Shown: positions 7,453 through 23,906 of the stretch, piece by piece
Layout of the letters: each line of letters opens with the position of its first letter
How positions within the stretch are numbered: position 1 is the stretch's first letter
Source: a virus
Direction: 5' to 3' (one strand)
DNA length: 31,353 nt
Virus record (IMG/VR): IMGVR_UViG_3300032299_000857
Span: 1-31,353 of that record
Translations under genes and position numbers: made by a program
The notes under the pieces: generated by a model
Seen by the model: the letters and a program-made list of their open reading frames with translations, nothing else
Database searches by the model: none
Told to the model about the DNA's origin: nothing

Positions 7453-8310
7453 TTAACCTTTCTTTTCTAGCTTTTTAGTTCTTTGATTTAATTCAGCTAT
7501 AGCAGCAAATAAAGGTGCCATGCCTTGTCCGTAATCAACCATCTTTCCCTCAGGGCCATCAACTACCATTTGCTTTCCAAGTTTAGATTTCTCTAGGTCC
7601 TGTGCCATAACAGAAGTGACTTTCCCCTCTGGGTTTTTTTGTCCGTTATTTTCTTTATCTTTATAATTGTAAGTGTAACTTTTAAGAGCGTCCAAAAACT
7701 CTCCTACCATTTCAGAACCAGATTTTTCCGTTTGATTCATATTTTCTTTTAGAGAAACGTCAGAATTTGCTCCACCACCACCGCCACCACCACCGGAACT
7801 TGCAGATGCTGCACTACCTGCTAGGCTACCAATAAATTCAGATCTTATTCTTGAACCTTCCAAGCCTGCTTGTAAATTTGATTGAGCAGCTCCAAGTGCT
7901 ACTCCTCTTTGTGCAGCAGCCTGTCTCATTAATTGTTCACTAGCAGCTCTTATTTCCTGCTCTTTTGCTATTGCAGACTGTGCACCGAGATCAATCCCCG
8001 CCTCTTTGCCTGCCTGCATCGCTTCTCTTTGTGCAAGTCCAACATTTGACATACCCCTAGATGATGCAGCCGCAGCCAGTTGTTGTTTGGAAAGATCTTG
8101 TATTGCTTTTTGAAATTGCATTTCCGAAACAGAAGGAGATTTACCTGAGGCAATATCACGAAACCTTTGCAATGATTCTCTTTCACCTGCTAGAGCTTCT
8201 TTGGATAATTTAAATTGCCCCATACCTTGTAGATTAGTCTCTGGGTTAATACCTAAAAAACTACCTCCGGCTTGGAAACCTTTTTCTATTGTTTTTCCTA
8301 CGCTTCCCAT
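7453..8310 (-). CDS. Virion protein with C-terminal S74-like intramolecular chaperone domain
   Basis: A 285-residue protein. Residues 35-170 are Ala/Gln/Ser-rich and helical. A run of eight glycines (173-180) then acts as a linker, and the C-terminal 100 residues begin with SDVSLKEN (183-190). That matches the SDxxLKENI-type start of Peptidase_S74 / endosialidase chaperone domains, in which a Ser/Lys pair self-cleaves and the domain trimerises. The tail of the domain (MAQDLEKSKLG, then LAELNQR-type helix) also fits that family. S74 domains usually sit on tail spikes and fibres, but here the carrier is a short helical protein between the nozzle and ejection genes. It overlaps the GNAT gene by 13 nt. 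Confidence 0.75.
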   Translation of the reverse strand: MGSVGKTIEKGFQAGGSFLGINPETNLQGMGQFKLSKEALAGERESLQRFRDIASGKSPSVSEMQFQKAIQDLSKQQLAAAASSRGMSNVGLAQREAMQAGKEAGIDLGAQSAIAKEQEIRAASEQLMRQAAAQRGVALGAAQSNLQAGLEGSRIRSEFIGSLAGSAASASSGGGGGGGGANSDVSLKENMNQTEKSGSEMVGEFLDALKSYTYNYKDKENNGQKNPEGKVTSVMAQDLEKSKLGKQMVVDGPEGKMVDYGQGMAPLFAAIAELNQRTKKLEKKG

Positions 8311-8651
8311 ACAATTTCCTTGGCTAATTTTATTTCTTTTTCGTTAGCTCCAATTATTTTAAACCCTTTAACCATTTGAGCAAGTAATGCTTCATGTAAT
8401 CCGTTTGAGTTTATTTGAACTGAGCTTAATATATATTTAATTTTTTTTGCCCACGCTATAATCTCAACTTCTTTTAGTAAATTAGAACCTACTCCCTTAC
8501 GTCTATGATCTTTCTCAATGTACATATCATGTATATAAACGTGATCGGGTAAAAGAGAATATGTAACAAACCCATAGTCATGCTCAATAAGTTCAATGTT
8601 TGCTTTTTCTTTAATGTAATTACGATATTTAGTAAGACTTGTTTGGTGCAA
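8298..8651 (-). CDS. GNAT-family N-acetyltransferase
   Basis: A 117-residue protein with the acetyl-CoA pyrophosphate loop KDHRRKGVGSNLL at about residues 47-59, preceded by the beta4 strand (HVYIHDMYIE). It is shorter than stand-alone GNATs (about 150 residues), so it keeps mainly the core. The start is TTG at 8651, supported by AGGGGGG 7 nt upstream; both lie inside the end of the nozzle gene, giving a 23-nt overlap. It overlaps the S74-like gene by 13 nt, so it is locked in the virion operon. The substrate is unknown; modification of a virion protein or a host target are both possible. The fold call is firm, the role is not. Confidence 0.75.
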   Translation of the reverse strand: MHQTSLTKYRNYIKEKANIELIEHDYGFVTYSLLPDHVYIHDMYIEKDHRRKGVGSNLLKEVEIIAWAKKIKYILSSVQINSNGLHEALLAQMVKGFKIIGANEKEIKLAKEIVWEA

Positions 8652-19205: not shown

Positions 19206-19952
19206 TTAATTTATTTGTTCAAATATTCTTTTTTTAGCTATTTCAAAATACTTCTCATCTTTTTCAATGCCAATAAATTTTCTGTTAAGGTTTTTACAAG
19301 CAACACCTGTTGAACCGCTTCCCATTGTAAAGTCTAGGACAGTTTCAATCTCTAGTGTGTATGTTTTAATTAGGTATTCAAGAAGAGGTACAGGCTTTTG
19401 TGTTGGGTGAAATTTTTCCTTTGATTGACCATTAACAGTGTTAAATTTTAAAACGTCTTTCGGGTATCTGATATCTGTATTTTTTCTTGTATTTTCTACC
19501 TTTTTATAATCTCCATAATTATCACTTTTTGAATTACCTCCATGATAAACTGTGTTCATGGGTTTTGCTAAAATAAATTGTGGATTATATAGGGGAACTC
19601 CATTACAAAAAAGATGGATCATTTCATAATATTTCATGTGATATTTTTTTGCGTTTAAGAAACCCGATGGCTTGTCTTTTTCCCACACTAGATCATGCTT
19701 AAACATTTTTAAATTACTTATTCTTAAATGTGAACTGAAAGGCTCACTTCCAAACAATAAAATTGCGCCCTTTGGTTTGGTTGCCCTTCTGATTTGCTCC
19801 CACATCGGTTCAAACGGAATAACTACATCCCACTTGCAAGCCGTAGTTCCATAAGGAGGATCAGTCAAAACCATATCAACTGATTTATCTGGAATATTTT
19901 TCATTAGTTCTAAGCAATCGCCATGAAACAAATTTATTAATTTTTGATCCAA
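19206..19952 (-). CDS. DNA methyltransferase, beta-class amino-MTase (N6-adenine or N4-cytosine)
   Basis: A 248-residue enzyme. Catalytic motif IV DPPY is at 31-34 and the SAM-binding motif I, DFTMGSGSTG, is near the C-terminus (about 207-216), preceded by HPTQKPVPLLEYLI. This IV-to-I order is the beta class. DPPY favours N6-adenine, though N4-cytosine enzymes of this class exist. There is no Pro-Cys-Gln motif, so it is not a 5-methylcytosine enzyme. No restriction endonuclease is adjacent, so it is an orphan, likely for protection against host restriction or for DNA marking. It sits 4 nt after a small gene and 2 nt before the tRNA. Confidence 0.88.
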   Translation of the reverse strand: MDQKLINLFHGDCLELMKNIPDKSVDMVLTDPPYGTTACKWDVVIPFEPMWEQIRRATKPKGAILLFGSEPFSSHLRISNLKMFKHDLVWEKDKPSGFLNAKKYHMKYYEMIHLFCNGVPLYNPQFILAKPMNTVYHGGNSKSDNYGDYKKVENTRKNTDIRYPKDVLKFNTVNGQSKEKFHPTQKPVPLLEYLIKTYTLEIETVLDFTMGSGSTGVACKNLNRKFIGIEKDEKYFEIAKKRIFEQIN

Positions 19953-20171: not shown

Positions 20172-20585
20172 CTATTTGTAAAATTTAAACCTATCATATT
20201 CAAGGTTATATTTATTAAGTAAAAACCTGAGATCTTTTGTATAAAAACTAACTGTGATGTTCTTTTTAGTTTTAAAGATTTTATCCAAGATCATGTTAGC
20301 AATACCCATTCTTCTAAATGCCATCTTTACTAGCACATAATGAAGCGTGTAATTCAAATCATAAATAGCATACCCAACAATGAATGTAGGGTCATCATCG
20401 GTACAGGCAACTAGGATATTAATCTCACCTGACTGAAATTTATTAATTAGGCAGTCTGATAAACCGTCATGATAAATAGAGAAGCGTTCTTTCTTCCCTG
20501 TTGTGTCCTCATAAGAGGATTTAATCATTGTAGTTAAAATGAAGTTTTTATCGTCTGGGAGAAACTCTCTTAGTATTATGTTCAT
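20172..20585 (-). CDS. GNAT-family acetyltransferase-like protein
   Basis: A 137-residue protein. The N-terminal ILREFLPDDKNFI fits the GNAT beta1-alpha1 start, FIVGYAIYDL the beta2-3 region, and LHYVLVKMAFRRMGIANMIL (about 82-101) the acetyl-CoA loop, with Arg-Arg-Met-Gly-Ile-Ala in place of the usual Q/RxxGxG/A. The fold call is good; the substrate is unknown. The start overlaps the small-terminase stop by 4 nt (ATGA). Similar small GNATs are frequent next to terminase genes in podoviruses (recalled), but their role is not known to me. Confidence 0.7.
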   Translation of the reverse strand: MNIILREFLPDDKNFILTTMIKSSYEDTTGKKERFSIYHDGLSDCLINKFQSGEINILVACTDDDPTFIVGYAIYDLNYTLHYVLVKMAFRRMGIANMILDKIFKTKKNITVSFYTKDLRFLLNKYNLEYDRFKFYK

Positions 20586-21019
20586 CTAATTTTTTCTACT
20601 AACTCAATAGCTTCATTAATAAGAAGTTTTGTGTCTTCTTTAGTTATTCTTAATTCAGATATATTTCTAGAATCATGTTTGTCTGCATAAGTTTCATGAA
20701 ACCTTGTCTTAAGAGCAAACATTAGAGCTTGTGTATCAATTTTTTTCTGATCAATGTTTGGAATATTTTGCCCAGAAACTTTTGCTACTAATCTTTTTTC
20801 AAAAAAATCCTGAGCAAGCTGCAAACCAATGTCATGTGCTTCTGCGAATTCTGGAATCTCGTCTATCCATTTATAAACAGTGCTTCTAGTAACACCTATC
20901 GTACCGCCAAAAGTTTGCATGGATAACCCAGTTCTTAAATGATCAATGAGCTTCTGACAATATTCAGGTCTATACTTGCATTGCTTGGCTAGGTGCGTAG
21001 TGTCCGAGTTTTGTGTCAT
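20582..21019 (-). CDS. terS: Terminase small subunit candidate
   Basis: I start at the ATG at 21019 (145 residues) because AGGAAG lies 8 nt upstream; an in-frame ATG at 21040 also exists. The segment GLSMQTFGGTIGVTRSTVYK (about 31-50) is a clear helix-turn-helix, followed by WIDEIPEFAEAHDIGLQLAQ, a phrase typical of small terminase DNA-binding domains. The rest is helical, as needed for oligomerisation, ending in an acidic/basic helix. It would bind the packaging site and hand DNA to the large subunit. The alternative is a transcription factor, but the HTH-helix pattern and location near terL favour terminase. Confidence 0.75.
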   Translation of the reverse strand: MTQNSDTTHLAKQCKYRPEYCQKLIDHLRTGLSMQTFGGTIGVTRSTVYKWIDEIPEFAEAHDIGLQLAQDFFEKRLVAKVSGQNIPNIDQKKIDTQALMFALKTRFHETYADKHDSRNISELRITKEDTKLLINEAIELVEKIR

Positions 21020-21020
21020 T

Positions 21021-21218
21021 TTATTCACTTCCTGTAGCATTTAAACCAAGAGTTTTTTTCTTCACTGACATTTCTTTATTGGCCAATTTAATTTGGTAAT
21101 TCAAATTGTAACTTCTGAAGCATTCTTTGCATTTACTGAAATGGCCATCTTTGAGCATTCTATTTTCATAAAAATCATTTAAACTTTTTGTTAAATTACA
21201 ATTTTTACATTTTTTCAT
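21021..21218 (-). CDS. Small zinc-ribbon protein, HNH-associated type
   Basis: Starting at the ATG at 21218, the 65-residue product begins MKKCKNCNLTKSLNDFYENR and continues into a second CxxC, KCKEC. This CxxC-x(n)-CxxC treble-clef ribbon is the N-terminal part of many phage HNH endonucleases, but no HNH catalytic block follows, so this is either a stand-alone zinc protein or a truncated HNH. A start at 21242 (overlapping the FkbM stop by 20 nt) is the alternative. The stop lies one base before the small-terminase ATG. Confidence 0.55.
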   Translation of the reverse strand: MKKCKNCNLTKSLNDFYENRMLKDGHFSKCKECFRSYNLNYQIKLANKEMSVKKKTLGLNATGSE

Positions 21219-21222
21219 AAGT

Positions 21223-21915
21223 TTAATTAAGGCAATAAACATTGGTGCAAGCAGGGAACCAGCTTGATTGCCACAAGTTGTTCTTCCTATCTTTTATAGA
21301 GCAAGATGATTCTTTTTTTACTTTAATTTTTTTATAGTTCTTTTTTTGCAAATCATAAACTCTCCACAGTCTTTCGAGGCTTGGATCAATATCGAAAGAC
21401 CATTCGTAAACAAATTTATTAAAAGTTTTAATTTTTGGATTTTCTAAAATAGGCATTTCAGCACCTTCTATGTCCATTTTACAGCATTCAAATTTTTCAC
21501 TTTGCTCATAAAAATTTAAACAATTTACAACTGTACTTGAAGAGCCTTTCCAGTTTTTGAACAAAGAGTTCCTCCAACTTTGATTTCCAAAAAACATTTT
21601 AGCTTTTTTCGCATCATTATGAACAAGGGCGGCATTAATAATGTTTGCGTTTAAATTGTTTTCTTTTAAATTTAGCTCGATCATTTTGCATAAGTTAGGA
21701 TCTGGTTCATAGCAAGTAACTTTTGCACCTAAATAACTTGCCATAACTGTGAACGCTCCAACGTTTCCGCCACAATCCATCCAATTATCATTTTTTTCGA
21801 TTTTTATACCATGTTTTTGATATACATTTTTTCCAATAACTTCTTCATAAGTTTTTATATCTGATTCGTTTTCTCTGTAATGCAATCTGTAGGGACCAAT
21901 TTCTATTAACTTCAT
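21223..21915 (-). CDS. FkbM-family SAM-dependent methyltransferase
   Basis: A 230-residue protein. SAM-binding motif I is WMDCGGNVGAFTVMAS (about 45-60), motif II CYEPDPN (about 68-74), and CKMDIEGAEMPIL (about 144-156) is the characteristic FkbM block. FkbM enzymes known to me O-methylate sugars or small molecules; the phage substrate is unknown. The start overlaps the dioxygenase stop by one base (TAATG), which ties it to that gene. Given the neighbour, methylation of an oxidised or glycosylated DNA base is an attractive but unproved idea; surface-glycan methylation is the alternative. Cys-rich (at least 7 Cys). Confidence 0.8.
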   Translation of the reverse strand: MKLIEIGPYRLHYRENESDIKTYEEVIGKNVYQKHGIKIEKNDNWMDCGGNVGAFTVMASYLGAKVTCYEPDPNLCKMIELNLKENNLNANIINAALVHNDAKKAKMFFGNQSWRNSLFKNWKGSSSTVVNCLNFYEQSEKFECCKMDIEGAEMPILENPKIKTFNKFVYEWSFDIDPSLERLWRVYDLQKKNYKKIKVKKESSCSIKDRKNNLWQSSWFPACTNVYCLN

Positions 21916-22685
21916 TATCTGTCCTTCGAAAAAGCATCTAAAGGGTAAAAAACCAAACTATTTCTATATCCCTTATTCTTTGTTGGAACTATTTTTGTCA
22001 CTCCATGTAAACTTTTCCATGCAGGATAAACTAAAATAGAACTGTCTTTGGAATTGAAACAAGCATCATAATCAGGAACATATAGGTTTCCACCAGTAGA
22101 ATCTTTTCTTTTAGATATGATTACATTTACGCAATTTTTGATGTTGAGTTTATCAATATGGAAATCTGCTGAAATGTTGAAGTTAGAAATACTAGAAGTA
22201 AACAACTTACTAAACCGATATTTTTCTAAAACTCTCTCTTCTATCAACCTTTTTTGTAATTCATACTGGCCAGGCATAATCTCTTTGATTAACTCTTCTG
22301 CCATATTAACAAGAACTTTCATACCCTTTATGAAATCAACCGCTGTTTTAACATTATGAACGGAACTTATACTAGGGTAAGAACGTCTCATGTGTGGTTT
22401 AGGAGGTATAGAGCCAATTATTGTTGAAAACTGCTCAACCGGGTTCCCATTGTGCAAACCACTAGACCTCGTCATTATTTGTTTAGGAACTCTTTCTGAT
22501 AAAAGCTCATTGTTACAAAATTCTGCACATTGTTTTATTTTTCCAGTCAAACTGTTAATAAAAAAACCAATAAGCTCACCGTTTTCGTATAACAAACAAT
22601 CTTCTGTTATATTCGGATCAATTGAAGGACAAGATTGCCCAACCTTGTATGAATGATTTATTTTGTTTAGATCAATCGATCTCAT
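21915..22685 (-). CDS. 2-oxoglutarate/Fe(II) dioxygenase, TET/JBP-like candidate
   Basis: A 256-residue protein. The C-terminal half reads as a double-stranded beta-helix. FTSSISNFN (162-170) is followed by ADFHID with the HxD pair at His176 and Asp178, TGGNLYVPDYDACFN (197-211), then SLHGV with His227 as third iron ligand, and GYRNSLVFYPL with Arg241 for 2-oxoglutarate. These blocks, and an upstream IPPKPHMRRSYPS segment, match my recollection of phage TET/JBP enzymes that oxidise 5-methylcytosine or thymine in DNA. The N-terminal 80 residues are not recognised. It overlaps the ParB-like gene by 14 nt and the FkbM gene by 1 nt. The alternative is another 2OG oxygenase acting on protein or glycans. 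Confidence 0.7.
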   Translation of the reverse strand: MRSIDLNKINHSYKVGQSCPSIDPNITEDCLLYENGELIGFFINSLTGKIKQCAEFCNNELLSERVPKQIMTRSSGLHNGNPVEQFSTIIGSIPPKPHMRRSYPSISSVHNVKTAVDFIKGMKVLVNMAEELIKEIMPGQYELQKRLIEERVLEKYRFSKLFTSSISNFNISADFHIDKLNIKNCVNVIISKRKDSTGGNLYVPDYDACFNSKDSSILVYPAWKSLHGVTKIVPTKNKGYRNSLVFYPLDAFSKDR

Positions 22686-23307
22686 TCAATCTTTCTTTCA
22701 AATGAGTAAGAATTATTAGTCCAACGTAAGCACCTTTTTTTCTCCAGGTAGAAATAATTTCAGATGCCTCGTCGTAATGCTCTAATTCAAAATCAATCTG
22801 GATAGCTTTTCTCACACCGTCAGTAAAATCAGCAACGTCTTCTCCAGTTTTATCAAATTCTTCATCTAAATCAAACTTTTCAACAGGCTCAATAGTGAAA
22901 TCTTTTATCCCTAGTAGATCAATATTAAAGTCCGGGCCGAACTCTAGCATCTCAGAATTAACCATACTTAGATCTAGAGAACTCCACTCTGCAATAGCAT
23001 TATCAGAAGTCATAAAAGCATATTCTTGCGCTTCATTCTCAAAGTCTTGGAAATCAACAGCGATCTTGTCCCAACCATGATCTTTAGCAAGAATCTTGAT
23101 GGCTTCCCACCTACCATGCCCCGCTACAATAAATCCAGACCTCTTTGAAATGATGATCGGTAATCTTTGACCCTGATAAAGTATAAGCTCAGCAAGACGC
23201 TTTATTTGCTCTTCGCTGTGCTGGTTCATGTTTTTTGGATGTGGTATTATTTCAGGGGAATAAATATTAAGAAGTTTCTGGTAGGCAGTTTTAATCAATG
23301 AAATCAT
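22672..23307 (-). CDS. ParB-like (ParB/sulfiredoxin fold) protein
   Basis: A 211-residue protein. Residues 19-95 carry the ParB N-terminal pattern: IIPHPKNMNQHSEEQIKRLA (positions 20-39), then LPIIIS, and FIVAGHGRWEAIKIL with the GHxR box at 63-66. No ParB HTH is evident. The C-terminal part is very acidic (residues 130-165). In phages such stand-alone ParB domains act as nucleases or NTP-binding switches and often accompany DNA-modification genes (recalled). It starts a three-gene overlap chain with the dioxygenase and FkbM genes, preceded by a 71-bp gap with a long inverted repeat. Confidence 0.8.
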   Translation of the reverse strand: MISLIKTAYQKLLNIYSPEIIPHPKNMNQHSEEQIKRLAELILYQGQRLPIIISKRSGFIVAGHGRWEAIKILAKDHGWDKIAVDFQDFENEAQEYAFMTSDNAIAEWSSLDLSMVNSEMLEFGPDFNIDLLGIKDFTIEPVEKFDLDEEFDKTGEDVADFTDGVRKAIQIDFELEHYDEASEIISTWRKKGAYVGLIILTHLKERLNEID

Positions 23308-23378: not shown

Positions 23379-23906
23379 TTATTCCGCTAAATGTATCTTT
23401 TCATTAAATTTATACTGAATTTGTTCAGTATGGTTAGGGCAAAGAGCATCGTCAGTAAACTTTATTCTGTATTGTGGATAAACCATCCAACCCCGATTAG
23501 TAGAAATGCAATGAAATTGTTTCCACTGCACAGGATGTCTAGACAACCCATCACCCACAAAATCTATAGTGAATAGATATTGACCATTAATTATGTTTCC
23601 AAAATCTGTTTTAACAGTACATGGCATGTATCTTAGAAGGTCAAACGTAATGACCTGAATCTTGTTCCCAATATTGTCATACATCTGAGCTTCACCTAAT
23701 AACAAATCACACTCATTTTCTGGAGAGCAAAGCATGTGTATTGGAATACCAGTGTACAAAGCACCAGATTCGAGCAAAACAGAAAATTGCAAAGCCTGAT
23801 TCATGAGAGATCGCACTGAAACAAGCGTACCATTCTCATAATCTTTTTCTATACCTAAATAACTACCTAAAACTTTTACCTGTAGTGGTTCAGTATTACA
23901 GTTCAT
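23379..23906 (-). CDS. Conserved-looking phage protein of unknown function
   Basis: A 175-residue, beta-rich protein. The blocks ALYTGIPIHMLCS (about 50-62), IQVITFDLLRYMPC (about 83-96), GQYLFTIDFVGDG (about 107-119) and a terminal basic beta segment resemble a protein I remember from many uncultured tailed phages in the early or middle region, with no assigned function. Cys at several positions but no zinc pattern. It is separated by 8 nt from the upstream gene and followed by the inverted-repeat gap. Confidence 0.6.
   Translation of the reverse strand: MNCNTEPLQVKVLGSYLGIEKDYENGTLVSVRSLMNQALQFSVLLESGALYTGIPIHMLCSPENECDLLLGEAQMYDNIGNKIQVITFDLLRYMPCTVKTDFGNIINGQYLFTIDFVGDGLSRHPVQWKQFHCISTNRGWMVYPQYRIKFTDDALCPNHTEQIQYKFNEKIHLAE

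Follow-up and report, generated by a model that had tools for sequence, protein, structure and literature searches.

A conserved trio of ParB-like, TET/JBP dioxygenase and FkbM methyltransferase genes with a proposed role in phage DNA modification

Genome context and organization of the gene trio

The window described here is the whole of the 31,353-base virus record IMGVR_UViG_3300032299_000857, which carries SU10-like portal, adaptor and capsid genes together with genes coding for an Erf recombinase, an SSB and an amidase. Three leftwards-transcribed genes follow one another upstream of the terminase genes, and the features of this region are as follows.

22672..23307, minus strand: ParB-like ORF, 211 aa, with a GHGR motif and a ParB/Srx-like domain
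21915..22685, minus strand: TET/JBP-like 2OG-Fe(II) dioxygenase ORF, 256 aa (PF12851)
21223..21915, minus strand: FkbM-family class I SAM methyltransferase ORF, 230 aa (PF05050, TIGR01444)
21021..21242, minus strand: CxxC zinc-ribbon / HNH-like ORF, 73 aa (phrog_2340 endonuclease, 1.5e-10)
20582..21040, minus strand: terminase small subunit (phrog_309, 1.4e-19)

An earlier note on this DNA had described the first three genes as coupled by overlaps of 14 nt and 1 nt, and both are read directly in the sequence: the ParB-like and TET genes share 14 nt, and the TET and FkbM genes meet at a TAATG stop-start with AAGGA ahead of it. The chain of overlaps runs on beyond the three genes of that note, since the FkbM ORF overlaps the 73-aa zinc-ribbon ORF, which in turn overlaps the small terminase gene; this next downstream gene ties the operon to packaging. 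The note's reading of the trio as a GHxR ParB domain, an oxygenase with H176, D178, H227 and R241, and an FkbM methyltransferase agrees in all three parts with the profile matches and residue conservation given below.

The TET/JBP dioxygenase

The 256-aa protein matches Tet_JBP (PF12851) at E=6.6e-11 (42.1 bits, with a cut-off of 34.9). The predicted iron-binding triad (HxD...H) and the distal arginine for 2OG are near-invariant over 212 TET relatives, with H176 present in 211, D178 and H227 in all 212, and R241 in 211. For the AlphaFold2 model (mean pLDDT 88), which draws on the window protein plus 11 viral relatives, each of the best 16 PDB matches is TET2, NgTET1, CMD1 or CcTet (Z 15.4–18.3), with top scores of 18.3 for human TET2, 17.0 for Naegleria NgTET1, 16.4 for CMD1 and 16.1 for CcTet; 2OG folds outside the TET family score lower (FTO Z 13.9, AlkB-type about 13). 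A comparison of this kind had been suggested as a check on the assignment, and it places TET-family DNA dioxygenases at the top, with no protein or glycan hydroxylase ranking first, so that we reject a protein or glycan hydroxylase as the identity of the oxygenase. The substrate of the enzyme is very likely DNA, and from its sequence and modelled fold we propose that its target there is a pyrimidine, whose 5-methyl group it would oxidise.

Public annotations of these proteins vary. We reject the name queuine tRNA-ribosyltransferase, attached to phrog_6059 and to RefSeq relatives, as a mis-annotation of what are Tet_JBP proteins; the name occurs in NC_020847.1, NC_020857.1 and many mycobacteriophage records as well as in PHROGs. 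Similarly, HTVC112P gp18 is labelled 'DnaJ/SNF2' and is a Tet_JBP protein at 1.1e-29.

The FkbM methyltransferase

The 230-aa protein matches both FkbM (PF05050; E=1.7e-9, 38.4 bits with a cut-off of 22.7) and TIGR01444 fkbM_fam (1.8e-16, 60.9 bits with a cut-off of 37.7), and its profile also matches the PDB entry 2py6, 'Methyltransferase FkbM', at 6.6e-7. The AlphaFold2 model (pLDDT 85) has only generic class I methyltransferases among its Foldseek PDB matches, and the fold is therefore silent on the substrate. The FkbM proteins of trio loci form two well-supported viral clades in a phylogenetic tree, apart from 51 cellular FkbM sequences. The nearest relatives in a collection of bacterial and archaeal genomes (80 loci) are 20–32% identical.

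The ParB-like protein

The ParB-like ORF matches phrog_620 (ParB-like, 2.8e-21) and phrog_498 (2e-25), whereas its match to Pfam ParB_N is weak and below cut-off (0.016; 15.7 versus 26.3 bits), and no HTH was recognised in the protein. A chromosome or plasmid partition ParB is rejected, with TIGR00180 scoring 18.9 bits against a cut-off of 58.45; the gene's neighbours are TET and terminase genes and not parA. Of 118 TET loci in which the readable sequence on the ParB side exceeds 1.5 kb, 117 have ParB adjoining TET, and we propose that the ParB-like protein is a targeting or accessory subunit.

Recurrence of the trio in other phages

Relatives of the TET and FkbM proteins (47% and 44% identity, respectively) are present in Prochlorococcus phages MED4-184, P-HS2 and MED4-117, where a 'DNA methylase' annotated upstream of FkbM is ParB-like and a 'queuine tRNA-ribosyltransferase' is the TET. 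The three gene families of the window thus occur together in these cyanophages and in Pelagibacter phage HTVC112P, in the order ParB-FkbM-TET in the cyanophages (ParB-FkbM-TET-small ORF-TerL in MED4-184 and MED4-117) and ParB-TET-FkbM in HTVC112P. The window has the cyanophage type of TET and FkbM, yet its order, ParB-TET-FkbM, is otherwise found only with the pelagiphage type; the trio is retained while the gene order is reshuffled.

Viral contigs were scanned more widely with both proteins as bait. A first scan with the single window TET protein gave no matches, and the scans reported here were run with narrower alignments (A4, A5 and A2), the broad TET alignment being too divergent. With FkbM as bait, 58 IMG/VR contigs were recovered, of which 52 have a TET gene, adjacent to FkbM in 51, and 46 have ParB. 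The exceptions to adjacency are a set of near-copies (L062–L064), two contigs with distant FkbMs (L066 and L067), one that starts at FkbM (L059), and one with TET about 5 kb away (L065). With TET as bait, and blind to FkbM, we collected 80 loci each of the cyanophage and pelagiphage types (160 in total).

When the proteins neighbouring the trio in the window were searched together with it against all of these loci, ParB was found in 165, TET in 125 and FkbM in 116; 11 loci have the large terminase and four the N6/N4 methylase. The GNAT, zinc-ribbon, small terminase, portal and upstream ORFs of the window have no homologue in any TET locus, and we accordingly reject the GNAT, the zinc ribbon and the 68-, 77-, 89- and 175-aa ORFs as additional pathway members. 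The conserved unit is exactly three genes, with the 73-aa ORF outside it. Since only the trio recurs broadly among the window's neighbours, the module moves between otherwise unrelated phages.

An exchangeable decorator slot beside TET

FkbM is present in 62 of the 160 TET-bait loci. Other loci have different genes in the same slot, including the TET-associated glycosyltransferase TAGT (42 loci), an ADDT set comprising an amino acid:DNA transferase, a kinase and an amidotransferase (25), a GT-B-like protein (5), and a kinase only (5). The slot lies between ParB and TET in the cyanophage type and after TET in the pelagiphage type, although in a few cyanophage-type ADDT loci the set is placed after TET instead. 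The slot occupants match the curated Pfam families TAGT (PF20691) at 2.4e-9 to 5.5e-23 and ADDT (PF18724) at 2.8e-20, the latter also matching aGPT-Pplase3; GATase_6 is matched too, and P-loop kinases weakly.

FkbM and these decorators are nearly exclusive of each other. FkbM occurs together with another decorator in one of 56 readable loci, and another decorator is present in 64 of 84 loci that lack FkbM; Fisher's test gives 1e-20, but the loci are relatives and not independent, so that the counts outweigh the p-value. Mapped on the TET tree, the 78 labelled rows require at least 19 changes of decorator type (shuffled mean 32), so that a slot occupant is passed on for some time before it is exchanged. 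All of the swap partners act, by family, on a hydroxymethylpyrimidine in DNA, and the most economical view is that FkbM shares this type of substrate; by this analogy FkbM most likely belongs among the decorators of the TET product, and it probably acts on the product of the TET encoded beside it. The earlier note's interpretation is supported: its suggestion that FkbM may act on the oxidised base gains strong backing by context from this exchangeability with known DNA-base decorators, from the near-exclusivity and from the occurrence of the trio in unrelated phages and in two gene orders, with the product itself predicted.

In about 20 of the 160 TET loci (L087, L104, L106, L121 and others) ParB and TET are present but no decorator was recognised; the 5-hydroxymethyl bases may stay bare there, or a partner may be encoded elsewhere. 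The slot ORFs at L191:6930-8322 and L192:1585-2977 (322 aa + 151 aa) and at L090:5045-6001 (319 aa), in loci without FkbM, TAGT or ADDT, are candidate further decorators. The GT-B-like protein (324 aa) has no Pfam match and is found in five pelagiphage-type loci (L210:3671-4642 and four others).

A proposed modification pathway and its alternatives

We propose that the TET/JBP enzyme acts after replication on a pyrimidine base of the phage DNA, most likely thymine, whose 5-methyl group it converts to 5-hydroxymethyl, and that FkbM would then use SAM to O-methylate the resulting hydroxyl, giving 5-(methoxymethyl)uracil. The methyl ether would be a small, uncharged and irreversible cap. The ParB-like protein, the partner common to all of these TETs, probably recruits or targets them on DNA, and the likely gain is evasion of host restriction or of other nucleases before packaging. 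On balance, we favour the trio as a self-contained and transferable DNA-modification module in which TET oxidation is followed by FkbM O-methylation. We regard the chances as about even that TET and FkbM together produce 5-(methoxymethyl)uracil, or the equivalent cytosine base, and that this base is widespread in aquatic phages as one exchangeable decoration.

The trio loci were searched for enzymes that could supply a different acceptor. TAGT is absent from all 24 trio records, with L206 as the positive control, and ADDT is absent from the trio records tested; PF18724 has no match in the window (positive controls L124 and L097), which therefore lacks the signature of aGPT-Pplase/ADDT thymidine hypermodification. 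The bare hydroxymethyl is therefore the only recognised substrate at hand for FkbM in these records, and we lean towards direct O-methylation of that group. FkbM might instead methylate a sugar or other moiety on the base, added by a host enzyme or by an unrecognised phage transferase. The family is known mainly from sugar and polyketide hydroxyls, its homologues classically methylating those of sugars, and a third viral FkbM type does occur with the TAGT glycosyltransferase: at L206 (1964-3357) the order is ParB-TET-FkbM-TAGT, and at L065 it is ParB-TAGT-TET with the FkbM about 5 kb off. These FkbMs may O-methylate the TAGT-added sugar, but they fall outside both supported clades of trio FkbMs, and together with the missing transferases this makes a moiety other than the hydroxymethyl an unlikely target for the trio enzyme.

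As to the base, neither a C5-cytosine methylase (PF00145) nor a member of the thymidylate synthase family (PF00303) turned up in the window and the further 23 trio records, most of which may be fragments, host 5mC being possible, and there is no ThyX in the window. Thymine is the likelier substrate because it needs no prior methylation and because sister TET loci carry thymidine-type ADDT and aGPT-Pplase genes; given also the lack of a C5-cytosine methylase or thymidylate synthase in the 24 records, we hold with good confidence, from these gene contents, that thymine and not cytosine would be the base oxidised. An alternative is that TET acts on 5mC made by a host or unrecognised methylase, and that FkbM O-methylates the resulting 5hmC. 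The solved TET relatives found (TET2, NgTET1, CMD1 and CcTet) are all 5mC enzymes, and some phage TETs work alongside phage cytosine C5-methylases. PF00145 is nevertheless missing from the 24 trio records and the sister loci hold thymidine-type ADDT, aGPT-Pplase-like and kinase genes, which leaves the 5mC route at a low probability, close to that of the added moiety.

TET enzymes can oxidise stepwise up to the carboxyl, and FkbM could in principle form a methyl ester on a carboxylate produced in this way. Carboxyl methyltransfer is not known for FkbM, however, and the other enzymes of the slot (glycosyltransferases, and kinase plus transferase) all require the hydroxymethyl state; we consider an ester improbable. 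It is harder still to see FkbM as an upstream C5-methylase that makes the 5-methylpyrimidine for TET, even though FkbM lies ahead of TET in one of the gene orders and the uracil-C5 methylases RumA and TrmA are among the many class I Foldseek matches: its motif IV region is of the FkbM type, K-x-D-I-E-G-x-E, with D148 and E150 invariant and no cysteine, which argues against such a role, and the TAGT and ADDT sister systems need no C5-methylase because thymine is already methylated. Finally, bacterial FkbM genes are often glycan-related, but modification of host surface glycans or phage proteins by FkbM, and perhaps by the oxygenase too, with incidental clustering, is very unlikely in view of a TET fold and residues that match DNA dioxygenases, an FkbM-TET adjacency that, unlike the genes around it, is found again and again in unrelated phages, and the lack of a TET gene beside any cellular FkbM relative at the 80 loci. 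O-methylation of the hydroxymethyl base remains our proposal for the trio FkbM, by analogy with the other occupants of its slot.

Relationship to known systems

Gordonia phage CaiB carries a ParB-TET-pyrophosphorylase-kinase operon before the terminase, associated with thymidine hypermodification (PMC9302106), and Rhodococcus phage Tonitrus has the same type of operon in the same position (PMC11955845); both descriptions build on previous studies from Iyer, Lee and co-workers (PMC9302106, PMC11955845). The actinophage TET operons (Tonitrus, CaiB and the cluster B mycobacteriophages) resemble the window in having a ParB-like gene, TET/JBP and then a decorator beside the terminase, but their decorators are aGPT-Pplase/ADDT-type transferases and kinases, whereas the window has a single FkbM. 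The proposal of TET-initiated thymidine hypermodification in actinophages reportedly goes back to Iyer et al. (2013).

TAGT (PF20691) systems share the ParB-TET context and the slot, and both TAGT and FkbM would act on the TET-made hydroxyl; in the TAGT systems it is a sugar and not a methyl group that is added, and they are nearly exclusive of FkbM. In kinetoplastids, the base J pathway uses JBP1 and JBP2 to oxidise thymine in DNA, and a glucosyltransferase then decorates the hydroxymethyl. Base J and the trio thus have in common TET/JBP oxidation followed, as proposed here for the trio, by hydroxymethyl decoration, but the base J pathway is eukaryotic, adds a sugar and has other partners. 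The 5hmC carbamoyltransferase found by MetaGPA caps the 5hmC hydroxyl in phage DNA with a carbamoyl group (PMC8670742). As in our proposal, a small group is placed on the hydroxyl of a phage 5-hydroxymethylpyrimidine, but the group is carbamoyl and not methyl, and the 5hmC comes from a thymidylate-synthase-like enzyme and not from TET.

Within the literature searched, which excludes the gene neighbourhoods of Iyer et al. (2013), we found neither an FkbM acting on DNA nor a description of an FkbM-TET/JBP link in phages, and the earlier note's statement that no characterised pathway has exactly this set of genes agrees with this, Iyer et al. (2013) aside. The trio is most likely a variation on known TET-initiated hypermodification, and a methyl-capping DNA modification for which we found no published description. 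If so, these phages would have a methyl-ether-capped base in their DNA, and the FkbM family would gain a nucleic-acid substrate. Phages would then be seen to swap the final group (methyl, sugar or amino acid) on a constant ParB-TET core, which is what an arms race against restriction by the host would lead one to expect. Since the trio is present in isolated phages, the idea is open to direct test, and a methyltransferase that specifically recognises DNA 5hmU or 5hmC would serve as a reagent for mapping these bases.

Other genes of the window

A leftwards-transcribed N6/N4 DNA methyltransferase gene (19206-19952, minus strand) lies just downstream of the trio and matches PF01555 at 1.3e-33, while its CcrM-like matches fall short of the cut-off. 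Adenine may be a further target of methylation by this phage. Two small genes, both leftwards-transcribed, are GNAT acetyltransferase-like (20172-20585 and 8298-8651), the first of them located between the small and large terminase genes. Upstream of the ParB-like gene, a 175-aa ORF (23379-23906, minus strand) matches phrog_3704 'ferredoxin' at 1.6e-20, and this name is doubtful as the Pfam and NCBIfam ferredoxin models do not match the ORF. The leftwards-transcribed gene at 7453-8310 encodes a structural protein whose C-terminal half contains a Peptidase_S74 (endosialidase chaperone) domain.
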